Positions 1-6,079 of a DNA stretch of 64,000 bases are shown in pieces. Source of the DNA: Methanoculleus receptaculi (lineage in GTDB: Archaea > Halobacteriota > Methanomicrobia > Methanomicrobiales > Methanoculleaceae). The position numbers and the translations under genes are program-made. The notes beneath the pieces are model-generated. The model did not search any database. It was given only the letters and a program-made list of their open reading frames with translations, and was not told the origin of the DNA. The stretch is from NCBI RefSeq assembly GCF_033472595.1, contig NZ_CP137642.1, positions 186,001 to 250,000 on the forward strand. The letters are read 5' to 3'. How positions within the stretch are numbered: the stretch's first letter is position 1; the number at the start of each line of letters is the position of its first letter.

Positions 1-2070
1 CTCTGCAGGCAGGCTGTGGAACCATCCGGCGTAGATCTCTGCAGGGAGCAAAACAACGTCTCCGTCCTTTACCATACGGTCGAGCTCCCCGGGGGCCCAG
101 GTGCCGACGTTTCTTCCCTGGAGGAGCATCAGGTCGAGGAGGACGTCTTCGTCCGGGACCTCGCCGGCTACCGAGTAGCCCTCCGCCTTCATGGCGTTGA
201 GGAGGCTCGTGAGGCTCGGCACGATATCAAGGTAACTTGCGCCGAGGTTGTTCTTCCCTCCCCCGTGGTTGTAGTAGATGACGGCGATGCGCTTGTCGGG
301 GTTTGCAGTATGCCGGAGCTTCCCGAGTGCCAGAACCCTGTCGGCGAGCCAAGCAACCTGCTCGTCGACGGGTGTGATCGGGCGAAACCCGATCGCTTCT
401 GTCTCGGGGTCGATTCCCCTCCCGGCGGTCCAGATGAACTCTGTCTGGCCGTCAAGTTCGGGCATCGCGATCGAGTAACCGATCTTTGAAGCGGTGATGC
501 CGTCGGTGCCTTCCGCCCACTCTTCAGGGGTCTTTGAGTAATCAACAAGTGCGTTGATGATCGGGATGTTGTAGGCTGCCAGTTCCGCAATTCCCCGTTC
601 GGCGTTCTCACCGGACCCGTAAAACCTGAAGCACCTGATATTGACGATGGCGTCGATGACCGGCGTCCCGTTCCTGACGAAGAACCGGTCGATCACGTGA
701 GGGTTTTTATGATCGAGGAAGACCGGGAGGATGTTCGCTCCCCTGGCTTCAAATGCTCTCATGATAGCGTCATCACCGCGAAGATCGCCGGAACGGTAGT
801 GACTGTCATAGAAGATGATGCCGATGGTCGGTTTTGCCGGATCATACATGGAGTACCACGCCAGATAGTCATCCAGGTTCTCAAACGGTTCCCCGCTGTC
901 GGGATGGTAGATGCATTCCTGGGGGATGGTGATCGGATCCTTCACCGGGACGTCGGCCCCGCATAACCTGGCACTAATGTAGTCGATCAGCCTGAGCGCA
1001 TTCTCGGGACAGTTGTTGTCCCAGTAGGTCTCCACTGCCGGGTGGGCGGTCATATCGACGGTTCCGAGGGATTCATGCGTCCCTCCATGAAGGACCATTA
1101 TCGGAATCCCGAGGGCAGTGGCGTCCTTTACCGCCGGTTCGATGATATCTATTCCGGCCCCGAACATCTCAAGAAAGATGAGGTCATAGCCGGTGAGGTT
1201 GAGATCGGCAGGCAGGTTCTTTGAGGGATAGACCGTGACGTTTGCAGTGCTCTTCGCAGCTGCATCGATGTACATCGGGACATAACTCTCTCCACCGATG
1301 ATCATGACGATCCTGATCGCCTCTTGTGGTGATTGTGGAGGATCCACGGGTGTTGAGTTCCCGAAGCAGGTGTTGTCGATATACAGGAGCATGTTCAGGA
1401 TATTACCGTCACCCCCGTACTGCCAGTATCGGCTGATGTTCTGGTCCGCGGGCATACCGAATATAGTATCCGGGGAAAGGCCATAGAGGATGATCGTTGC
1501 GTTCTCACCGGCTGTGCCGTTGATACGCGCAGCGGTCTCATTGCCGATGGACGCGGCAAAGATAAGCGGTTCCCCGGCGAAATCGTGCAGCAGTGCCTCT
1601 TCTTCGGAGAAGAGGGAGACGTTCAACGGGACGCTCCCGGTCACATTGGTGATCGCTGCCCTCCTCTGGCTGTCGCCCGTGACGATCGCGATCCTGTTCT
1701 CCACAGCGGCCTCCCGCACTGTTTCGATCGTGTTCCCTTCACCAGCAGGAGTTCCAGAGTCCCCCAACGGGAGCGGGCCGCCGGCGGTTGCAGTCGGGAT
1801 CGGGGTCCCCGTTGCGTTCCCGGATTCGTCAGGGAGTGGCGTCTCCTCCACCTCTTCAGGGGCTGCAGGCTCCTCTGTTCCGGCCGCTTCCGGCATCGAA
1901 GGACTTTCAACCGGGTTCCGGGTATCCAGCCCGTTCGTTCCATTCTCCGAAACTTCTTCGCTCCCGGCTGGGTCCGCGGCGCCTTCACCTGCCGCAGGCG
2001 CGACCAGGAGCAGCGTGATCATAATCAGCGCACATAACCAGTACAGGTTGCTTTTTTTCGTAACTCTCAT
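1..2070 (-). CDS. Exported CobN-like cobaltochelatase-family protein (partial)
   Basis: Open reading frame of 690 codons with no stop; the C-terminal part lies outside the window. The ATG at 2070 follows a purine-rich Shine-Dalgarno (GGGAGGAAAAGAGG). Residues 1-28 form a signal peptide (positively charged start, then a hydrophobic core ending VAPAAG). Residues about 29-115 are a Pro/Glu/Ser/Thr-rich linker. From about 118 the protein resembles the N-terminal part of the CobN/BchH large chelatase subunit, including a stretch of the form KPTIGIIFYDSHYRSGD near 300. Classical CobN is cytoplasmic and inserts cobalt into hydrogenobyrinate with CobST partners. An exported copy therefore cannot simply be that enzyme. 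Upstream lie genes for an ExbD-shaped protein, an ExbB-like channel and a DUF2162 protein on the same strand. Corrinoid or metal handling outside the membrane is inference; the family call is firm. Confidence 0.85.
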   Translation of the reverse strand, partial: MRVTKKSNLYWLCALIMITLLLVAPAAGEGAADPAGSEEVSENGTNGLDTRNPVESPSMPEAAGTEEPAAPEEVEETPLPDESGNATGTPIPTATAGGPLPLGDSGTPAGEGNTIETVREAAVENRIAIVTGDSQRRAAITNVTGSVPLNVSLFSEEEALLHDFAGEPLIFAASIGNETAARINGTAGENATIILYGLSPDTIFGMPADQNISRYWQYGGDGNILNMLLYIDNTCFGNSTPVDPPQSPQEAIRIVMIIGGESYVPMYIDAAAKSTANVTVYPSKNLPADLNLTGYDLIFLEMFGAGIDIIEPAVKDATALGIPIMVLHGGTHESLGTVDMTAHPAVETYWDNNCPENALRLIDYISARLCGADVPVKDPITIPQECIYHPDSGEPFENLDDYLAWYSMYDPAKPTIGIIFYDSHYRSGDLRGDDAIMRAFEARGANILPVFLDHKNPHVIDRFFVRNGTPVIDAIVNIRCFRFYGSGENAERGIAELAAYNIPIINALVDYSKTPEEWAEGTDGITASKIGYSIAMPELDGQTEFIWTAGRGIDPETEAIGFRPITPVDEQVAWLADRVLALGKLRHTANPDKRIAVIYYNHGGGKNNLGASYLDIVPSLTSLLNAMKAEGYSVAGEVPDEDVLLDLMLLQGRNVGTWAPGELDRMVKDGDVVLLPAEIYAGWFHSLPAE

Positions 2071-2212: not shown

Positions 2213-2554
2213 TTAGTTATCCTCGTCCCCATCGTCGGGAACGTAGATGATCTCGCCGTTCTCCAGGCGGTATGCCGTACCCATGCGGCTGCCCTGGCCG
2301 CCGGCAAGTTCTTCGGTCATATTCAGCACCTTGAGGGTCTTGCCTTCCTTGATAATGATCTGCATGTTCGGCTGTCCCGGGTTTTTCACCACCGTGAGGT
2401 CCGCTTCATCGTCGAGGAGTTCGGGAACGTTGTAGGCGACGACGAGCGCGACCAGGAGGGCGACGGCGAAGACCATAGCGACGTCAAAGAGGTTGGCAAC
2501 GCCGGAGAGAGGGTCTTCGTCCTCGTCGTCGAGAATGATGCGTCTTCTCCTCAT
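2213..2554 (-). CDS. DUF2149 protein with ExbD/TolR-like architecture
   Basis: 113 residues. The start is ATG at 2554, overlapping the stop of the upstream MotA/ExbB-like gene as ATGA; a longer frame upstream of this Met is a shadow of that gene. The protein has a very basic start (MRRRR), an acidic stretch (DDEDEDPL) and one transmembrane helix at about residues 22-41. A soluble C-terminal part of about 70 residues follows. The helix begins LFDVAMVFAVALL, with an Asp at its cytoplasmic end exactly where ExbD and TolR carry their essential channel Asp. DUF2149 is, to my knowledge, found mainly in methanogens and uncharacterised. Translational coupling to an ExbB-like gene supports a stator-partner role, which is inference. 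Confidence 0.8.
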   Translation of the reverse strand: MRRRRIILDDEDEDPLSGVANLFDVAMVFAVALLVALVVAYNVPELLDDEADLTVVKNPGQPNMQIIIKEGKTLKVLNMTEELAGGQGSRMGTAYRLENGEIIYVPDDGDEDN

Positions 2555-3171
2555 GCCACCATCCTCACCACGTATTCCATGTCGCTCAAGTCCTGTAGAT
2601 ACCACCGGCGCTTCGTCAGCATGACGGCATAGGCGATGCCTCCGGCAAACAGCCCGAGTACCGTCGTGCTGAACGCGATGACCAGGTTGGATGCCAGCGC
2701 CTCGACGTTCCCTGCCGAAAGGCCCATCAGTGCGGGACCGAGGGGTATCAGCGTTCCCATGAGCCCGAGCATTGGGGCCGTCCGCGTCAGGATCTTGAGC
2801 CGCTCCAGTTCGGCTGCAATGCGTATCTCGTAGTCCTGGAGGAGCTTTTCCGACTCGATCGAAAATCGATCGTCCCCGAGAAGTTTCGCAAGGTCGCCGG
2901 TAAACGATCTGAGAAGCGGGTTTGACCCCGACGCTGCAAGCGTCTCTGCGGCTTCGCCGTACGACCGGGCCTGGACGAGCGCCCGGGTCTCCCGGCAACC
3001 GTCTCTGAGCCGTTCGAGGTTCCGGGTCCTTGCCGAGTACTCGGAGATGAACTGGCCGAGAGCCGTCAGTGTCCAGACAACGAAGGCAAGGAGCACTATG
3101 ATTGCAGGATAGAACAACGCCCCGGACAGGGTGAACATGGTCTCCATGATCAGTGTCGACAGGTCCGTCAT
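2551..3171 (-). CDS. MotA/TolQ/ExbB proton-channel family protein
   Basis: 206 residues. A first membrane segment lies at about residues 17-40, a cytoplasmic helical region of about 80 residues follows, then two C-terminal membrane segments. The family signature is at residues 130-182 (TRTAPMLGLMGTLIPLGPAL, then VIAFSTTVLGLFAGGIAYAV). The small residues and Thr that line the ion path in ExbB/TolQ are present. In bacteria this family forms the pentameric stator that couples proton or sodium flow to work through ExbD, TolR or MotB. Its start overlaps the stop of the DUF2162 gene and its stop overlaps the start of the DUF2149 gene, so the three are translationally coupled. The energised target is not obvious, because archaea of this group have no outer membrane or TonB; the downstream exported CobN-like protein is the candidate. 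Confidence 0.87.
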   Translation of the reverse strand: MTDLSTLIMETMFTLSGALFYPAIIVLLAFVVWTLTALGQFISEYSARTRNLERLRDGCRETRALVQARSYGEAAETLAASGSNPLLRSFTGDLAKLLGDDRFSIESEKLLQDYEIRIAAELERLKILTRTAPMLGLMGTLIPLGPALMGLSAGNVEALASNLVIAFSTTVLGLFAGGIAYAVMLTKRRWYLQDLSDMEYVVRMVA

Positions 3172-3884
3172 CTGCCACCACGCTCCGCGGTGTGCCGGAT
3201 TCTGTCGGTGAACACCCCGAACGCGATCAGGGCTGTCATCAGGACGAGCGCACGGAGCATGCCGACCGGATCCGTTGCGATGCCGAATGCCGGTGCGTCC
3301 TGCGCCTGCAGGTAGGCCGGGATGAGGAGGAGGCAGAGCAGGTAGAAGAGGCCGAGGAACAGCATGACGTTACCCAGGGTGGAGGGATTGTCCATACCGG
3401 CCTTTTTCGTTATCCAGCTCGTGACAATTCCCCCTCCCGTAATCCCTGCAAAGAATAAGCCCCCGATGACGGCGCCCGCCGCAACGCCGCTCATTCCGGT
3501 GGTGCTGGTGAAGACGAGGCACGAAAGGAATGTTGCTGCAAGGCATGCCGGGCAGGGAAGCGACACCAGGAGGAATGTTCGGCGCGATAGATCTCTGCGA
3601 TCCGCCAGCCAGGCTTTTTTCGTTCTGATGCCGAAATAGACGAGCGCGAGCCCGATGATGAGATGCATGACAACGCCGAGCCCGATGACCTGCTCTGTTG
3701 CGCTCACCGGGATGCTGCCAGCGATTGCTCCTATAATGAGCGCGGTGAGCGCATACATGGATGCAAGACAGAGCGTCTCGCATCTTCGCAGTCCCGAAAG
3801 CCCGCACCCGACCCCGCTCTTCAACGCCAGAAGGGTGGTGCCGCCGAAGACGCCGGCGGTGAGGAAGTTGACAACGTCACTCAT
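3168..3884 (-). CDS. DUF2162 predicted transporter
   Basis: 238 residues and strongly hydrophobic, with about six to seven membrane segments. Two halves are visible: residues about 5-85, and about 105-235 after a basic cytoplasmic loop containing KKAWLADRRDLSRR. A Cys pair motif CPACLA sits at the start of the second half (about residue 110). Several Gly/Ala-rich helices resemble the CcdA/LysE-type export superfamily. I recognise it as DUF2162, a family of predicted methanogen transporters without a known substrate. It is the first gene of a tightly overlapping set of three (ATGA overlap with the ExbB-like gene) followed by the cobN-like gene, which suggests a metal or metallocofactor substrate (inference). 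A TATA-like box precedes it. Confidence 0.75.
   Translation of the reverse strand: MSDVVNFLTAGVFGGTTLLALKSGVGCGLSGLRRCETLCLASMYALTALIIGAIAGSIPVSATEQVIGLGVVMHLIIGLALVYFGIRTKKAWLADRRDLSRRTFLLVSLPCPACLAATFLSCLVFTSTTGMSGVAAGAVIGGLFFAGITGGGIVTSWITKKAGMDNPSTLGNVMLFLGLFYLLCLLLIPAYLQAQDAPAFGIATDPVGMLRALVLMTALIAFGVFTDRIRHTAERGGR

Positions 3885-4054: not shown

Positions 4055-6079
<2,025 letters not shown>

Follow-up and report, generated by a model that had tools for sequence, protein, structure and literature searches.

A DUF2149 protein of Methanoculleus receptaculi as a probable functional counterpart of ExbD, encoded between an ExbB-like and a CobN-like protein

Class I chelatases such as CobNST and ChlHID need an AAA+ motor (CobS/T or ChlI/D). 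In Bacteroides, the membrane-anchored HmuS protein strips iron from haem, and its activity in lysates requires NADH, not ATP (PMC12583661). HmuV, encoded in the hmu operon of Bacteroidota, was called an ExbD homologue in 2023 (PMC10100974). In Pseudomonas aeruginosa, the Zur-regulated PA1922-PA1925 genes include those of the CobN-like PA1923, the ExbB-like PA1924 and PA1925, a DUF2149 protein (PMC9431628, PMC4542158). Archaea have been said to lack the rest of the hmu operon (an EMBO Journal paper, PMC12583661; a proteome study of Methanosarcina barkeri, PMC10846266). In M. barkeri, two CobN-like proteins are more abundant with iron present as pyrite or given with cysteine (PMC10846266). We found that, in many archaea, the chelatase gene is accompanied by genes for a putative motor ring, its axle and a permease.

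The window, a stretch of 64,000 nucleotides of Methanoculleus receptaculi, harbours on its minus strand a four-gene cluster in the order DUF2162, ExbB-like, DUF2149 and CobN-like. The DUF2149 protein (113 residues; positions 2213-2554) gives a full-length match to PF09919 (E 2.8e-35, 121 bits), and we propose from gene order and conservation that it is the B-subunit, or axle, of a stator. The gene before it (2551-3171) codes for an ExbB/TolQ/MotA-like protein of 206 residues (MotA_ExbB, PF01618, E 7.8e-11), the sole ExbB of the genome. An earlier note on this DNA, which read the DUF2149 protein as an archaeal equivalent of ExbD and TolR, had reported a 4-nt overlap between these two genes. We found it at 2551-2554, and the DUF2162 and ExbB-like genes also share a 4-nt overlap, so that the first three genes overlap at both junctions. 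The flanks, which that note did not cover, are occupied upstream by the gene of a predicted DUF2162 permease (238 residues; 3168-3884; PF09930, E 7.2e-47) and downstream by that of a CobN-like protein (PF02514, E 6.5e-82), the proposed client of the motor. The latter gene starts at position 2070 and continues past the window edge, so that only the N-terminal part is encoded within the window (1-2070); the whole protein, read from the genome, comprises 1581 residues (L031:5326-10071). Named relatives with 91-98% identity belong to Methanoculleus, which fits a methanogenic host. Just upstream of the cluster, on the same strand (4055-6079), is the gene of a large membrane protein that resembles membrane-bound pyrophosphatases by its sequence.

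The locus is similar to the hmu operon of Bacteroidota, in which HmuV is a DUF2149 protein (that of B. finegoldii matches PF09919 with E 2e-34), HmuU resembles ExbB, and HmuS belongs to the CobN family and has a helix at each end. In contrast with this operon, the archaeal loci are devoid of HmuY, HmuR and TonB, and DUF2162 takes the place of HmuT. Because HmuV has already been named an ExbD homologue, the assignment of DUF2149 to the stators is not wholly new. The description of DUF2149 as 'archaeal' proved too narrow, since both HmuV and PA1925 belong to it. The PA1922-PA1925 system has the same three types of components, but it also includes a TonB-dependent receptor and is zinc-responsive. 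With ExbB-ExbD and TolQ-TolR, the archaeal system shares the gene order, a single helix that carries an Asp close to its start, and threonines of the ring equivalent to T148 and T181; it differs from them in having no TonB or TolA, no equivalent of Glu176 and an external domain that is not recognisably that of ExbD. Finally, CobNST and ChlHID have a homologous large subunit, and an HFGxHG motif is present in the CobN-like protein of the window. However, they work in the cytosol with an AAA+ ATPase as their motor, whereas the large subunit of the window is anchored and predicted to be outside the cell.

The DUF2149 protein has the ExbD-like plan that had been described for it, with an Arg-rich N-terminus, one helix and a small external domain. 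In the AlphaFold2 model, the single transmembrane helix spans residues 17-40 (2435-2506, minus strand), with pLDDT values of about 85-90 there. The proposed ion-path acid, Asp24 (codon at 2483-2485, minus strand), is located within NLFDVAMVFAVALL. Among 67 representatives with <90% identity, from archaea, Bacteroidota, Pseudomonadota and Trichlorobacter plasmids, 66 have Asp at this helix-start position, the exception being a Glu in Runella, and the Asn three residues ahead of it is invariant (67/67); like the pairing counts below, these numbers are drawn from related sequences and are thus non-independent samples. As read from these alignments, the conservation of the Asp is far beyond chance, and its loss across the family, which would have refuted the earlier reading, was not seen. 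The external domain is modelled as five strands, with no helix outside the membrane, at low confidence (mean pLDDT 68.7, pTM 0.37). Foldseek searches with this model gave no significant match and no match to ExbD. With Foldseek and VIA-align 2, the best hits (Z 4.0) were fatty-acid/retinoid-binding beta-barrels, and ExbD was not listed. Scans of IMG/VR for ExbD and DUF2149 found nothing. Two contigs labelled Planctomycetota and Poribacteria code for archaeal-like DUF2149 proteins with 59-61% identity to that of the window (L125:9506-9982 and L134:1490-1975), and these might be binning errors.

In ExbB-ExbD structures, T148 and T181 of ExbB face Asp25 of ExbD. Their equivalents in the ExbB-like protein of the window are Thr140 (2752-2754, minus strand), which is a Thr in 77/77 representatives, and Thr170 (2662-2664, minus strand), a Thr in 73/77. 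None of the 77 keeps a Glu at the position equivalent to Glu176 of ExbB, which we count against the stator reading. An ExbB-like gene is found directly upstream of the DUF2149 gene in all 123 testable loci, namely those with at least 700 bases available upstream. In a set of 295 genomes from the same phylum, DUF2149 occurs in 92 and an ExbB above the cut-off in 90, and the two are found together in 89 (Fisher p about 8e-71, shared ancestry being uncorrected). The three genomes with DUF2149 only are incomplete draft assemblies, and the single genome with ExbB only, G204, is also the sole one of the 295 with a true ExbD above the cut-off. This canonical ExbD, which is encoded together with an ExbB (L161, contig C139), may come from a contaminating bacterial contig or from transfer. 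A search for TonB_C in 100 genomes of the phylum found it in none. The strict pairing, the co-occurrence in 89 genomes, the presence of a true ExbD in a single genome and the lack of TonB_C in the 100 genomes searched thus indicate that DUF2149 occupies in this phylum the place that ExbD has in bacteria.

Working like ExbD and belonging to its family are separate matters. The Pfam ExbD profile (PF02472) matched neither the DUF2149 protein of the window nor five bacterial relatives (E up to 1). In a profile-profile comparison, hhalign aligned DUF2149 and ExbD over a 20-column helix only, a weak match (Prob 6.5, E 0.0056) that nevertheless places Asp on Asp25, where the earlier note had expected it. 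This score was reached by 0/150 column shuffles over the full length and by 10/150 within the helix; a larger DUF2149 alignment (A6) scored lower (E 0.14) and left the register unchanged. When single sequences were used, Asp fell on Asp25 of ExbD for 121 of 133 DUF2149 proteins, which are mutually related, versus 17 of 250 other membrane ORFs. As a yardstick, MotB of E. coli, which is accepted as a relative, matches the ExbD profile with E 0.04, and the helix match of DUF2149 is of about this weakness. In a 2025 survey, searches for MotB relatives mostly failed to detect ExbD and TolR (PMC12505986). The functional half of the proposed equivalence with ExbD and TolR is well supported by the conserved acid, the partner residues of ExbB, the strict pairing, the co-occurrence and the near absence of true ExbD, and DUF2149 very probably works as an ExbD. 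In contrast, the data do not establish it as an ExbD family member: given the lack of a Pfam match, the weak, helix-only alignment and an external domain that is all-beta in a low-confidence model and not recognisably ExbD, we limit the claim to a protein that works like ExbD.

Each of the 43 well-assembled genomes with DUF2149 that we tested has a CobN, and it is encoded within 3.5 kb of DUF2149 in 39 of the 52 loci with room for it. The other 13 have no CobN nearby, so that the CobN-like protein may not be the only client of the motor. Hydropathy predicts hydrophobic segments at residues 9-27, maybe a cleaved signal, and 1558-1576 of the window's protein, and such segments are found at both ends in 64 of 83 archaeal CobN copies. 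Its best match in the PDB is HmuS (566 bits), followed by CobN (515) and ChlH (about 470). Of the first HmuS motif, HFG(T/A)HG, which contains the catalytic His-538, the window's protein keeps the His in HFGRHG, with Arg at the T/A position. The second motif, LSLDHxxEFMGG (His-1209), is missing from it; the protein reads DNDDCFQYVG, in which DD..QY replaces the second histidine of HmuS, and a DHxxE form was found in 7/83 archaeal copies. We therefore rejected HmuS proper as the partner in the window, and with that histidine replaced the range of possible substrates stays wide: haem, a cobamide, F430 or another metal chelate. In three loci, tandem CobN-like genes of different lengths accompany one ExbB-DUF2149 pair, as if several chelatases were served by one motor (L143:10500-20312, L126:10535-20339 and L132:2132-17963).

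Within the 45 residues ahead of the C-terminal helix, we found a VxGxxM motif in 50 of 62 distinct archaeal CobN tails, whereas 500 shuffles gave a mean of 0.6 and a maximum of 4. It is preceded by a Ser/Thr/Pro-rich stretch and also occurs in the tails of the Trichlorobacter (VEGFEM) and Runella (VKGYKM) proteins. This juxtamembrane motif is a possible docking site for DUF2149; the cytosolic CobN tail ends with VQGGAV, so that VxGxxM may be an old CobN tail and not a new docking peptide. The bacterial plasmid trios are found beside nickel genes (hyp in Runella, nikR in Azospirillum) or cobalamin genes (Trichlorobacter), and the Trichlorobacter plasmid has a separate canonical exbB-exbD-tonB set beside its DUF2149 set. 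Thus, from Bacteroidota and Pseudomonas to the plasmid trios, the common factor of these loci is the CobN-like protein and not TonB.

We next related the type of CobN to the presence of an AAA+ motor in the 43 DUF2149 genomes. All 17 genomes with a short, cytosolic-type CobN have a motor of the CobS/T or ChlI/D type, whereas 13 of the 26 genomes with long CobN only have none (Fisher p 4e-4). The genome of the window, with an anchored CobN only, has no CobS/T or ChlI/D-type motor. The remaining 13 of the 26 carry ChlI/D-like genes, which we count against a replacement of the AAA+ motor by a stator. In an unrooted tree whose bacterial members are all DUF2149-linked, ten cytosolic CobN copies are set apart from all DUF2149-linked copies, archaeal and bacterial. 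The need of HmuS for NADH in lysates was counted against a chelatase driven by an ion motor, and its independence from ATP in favour of one. Tentatively, class I chelatases placed outside the cell, where ATP is lacking, could have an ion-gradient stator instead of their AAA+ ATPase: ExbB-DUF2149 might power the anchored CobN/HmuS-type protein via VxGxxM, and HmuU-HmuV might likewise act on HmuS in Bacteroidota and not on the outer membrane receptor.

The DUF2162 permease gives a helical model (pLDDT 88.5), whose matches are only middling and thus uninformative (SLC33A1, Z 8.1; ZIP transporters, Z about 7.8). Its PCPAC motif (residues 110-114; 3543-3557, minus strand) sits in a helix and is a possible metal site, with P110, C111 and P112 invariant in 38 sequences and C114 conserved in at least 90%. 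DUF2162 is not equated here with HmuT, to which it has no profile similarity (Prob 0.5). In Runella, a gene for a HupE/NicO-like nickel permease is found at its usual place, inside a hyp hydrogenase-maturation cluster (L155:7599-8225), and this protein also has no profile similarity to DUF2162.

These comparisons give good support to the assignment of DUF2149 as a stator subunit, based on conservation and pairing, and to its genetic link with a chelatase. We favour a model, which we regard as more probable than not, in which ExbB-DUF2149 is an ion-driven stator motor that most likely drives the co-encoded anchored CobN-like protein. DUF2149 would be the single-helix axle of an ExbB/TolQ/MotA-type motor whose ring would be made of the protein of the preceding ExbB-like gene. 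As in the known 5:2 motors, ions flowing via Asp24 and Thr140/Thr170 of the ring would turn the ring against the axle, and the force would be passed outside the cell to the CobN-like protein. To our knowledge, these archaea have no outer membrane, and the search of 100 genomes revealed no TonB; hence, that protein is the most likely recipient of the force. Once driven, it might open, release a product, or remove or insert the metal of a metallo-tetrapyrrole, and DUF2162 would carry metal or ligand inward. Rotation, the ion used, the coupling to the chelatase, the substrate and the direction of metal transfer are what we infer beyond the assignment itself.

Other roles can be envisaged for the pair. 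It might power the DUF2162 permease for metal or tetrapyrrole uptake, the CobN-like protein merely passing the cargo on. In 68 of 88 testable loci, the gene directly upstream is indeed that of DUF2162, frequently with gene overlaps, and the PCPxC motif of DUF2162 is conserved. However, loci of Azospirillum, Comamonadaceae and Runella keep ExbB-DUF2149-CobN without DUF2162, and HmuT of Bacteroidota does not resemble it, which makes this role unlikely. The role proposed for HmuU/HmuV and PA1924 (PMC10100974, PMC4542158), that of energising a TonB-type receptor in the outer membrane, would fit the TonB-dependent receptor genes of the Bacteroidota and Trichlorobacter loci. The archaea have no outer membrane for such a receptor, TonB_C is found in 0/100 genomes, which led us to reject this role for archaea, and the Trichlorobacter locus has its own exbB-exbD-tonB; overall we deem it very unlikely.

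The weak similarity to ExbD and the different, uncertain fold of the external domain would also suit a protein that stabilises or gates the ExbB-like ion channel, in which the Asp would be structural, as a helix cap, and no mechanical work would be done on a client. We find this rather improbable, as the acid is conserved jointly with the two threonines that face it and the sole departure, Glu, is also ionisable. Lastly, the motor might work on the cell surface, on the S-layer or other surface proteins, and be linked with the chelatase by co-regulation only. Two Methanolobus-type loci have an ExbB-DUF2149 pair without CobN directly downstream of an S-layer gene (PF07752; L150:6444-9983 and L039:9778-13284), which hints at a possible second client. 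In two ANME-type loci, the pair is next to a long DUF2162 gene and, in place of CobN, the gene of a NosD-like beta-helix surface protein (L051:8863-13021 and L054:4909-9656); the DUF2162 protein of L051 has an additional TPR-like N-terminal part. Nevertheless, CobN is the usual neighbour in archaea and bacteria alike, and a surface client in place of the chelatase appears very unlikely.

The motor idea has been published in part via HmuV, and what is new here is the proposed client, a CobN-like chelatase. If the favoured model is correct, the uncharacterised DUF2149 family would gain a mechanism, and organisms that lack an outer membrane would be seen to have an ExbB/ExbD-type motor. The hmu operon, which is found in common gut anaerobes, would be re-read, as HmuU-HmuV may energise the haem de-chelatase and not the TonB receptor. 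The archaeal homologues of HmuS and CobN, unexplained in published work, would gain partners, and there would be a testable answer to the question of how large chelatases outside the cell obtain their energy.
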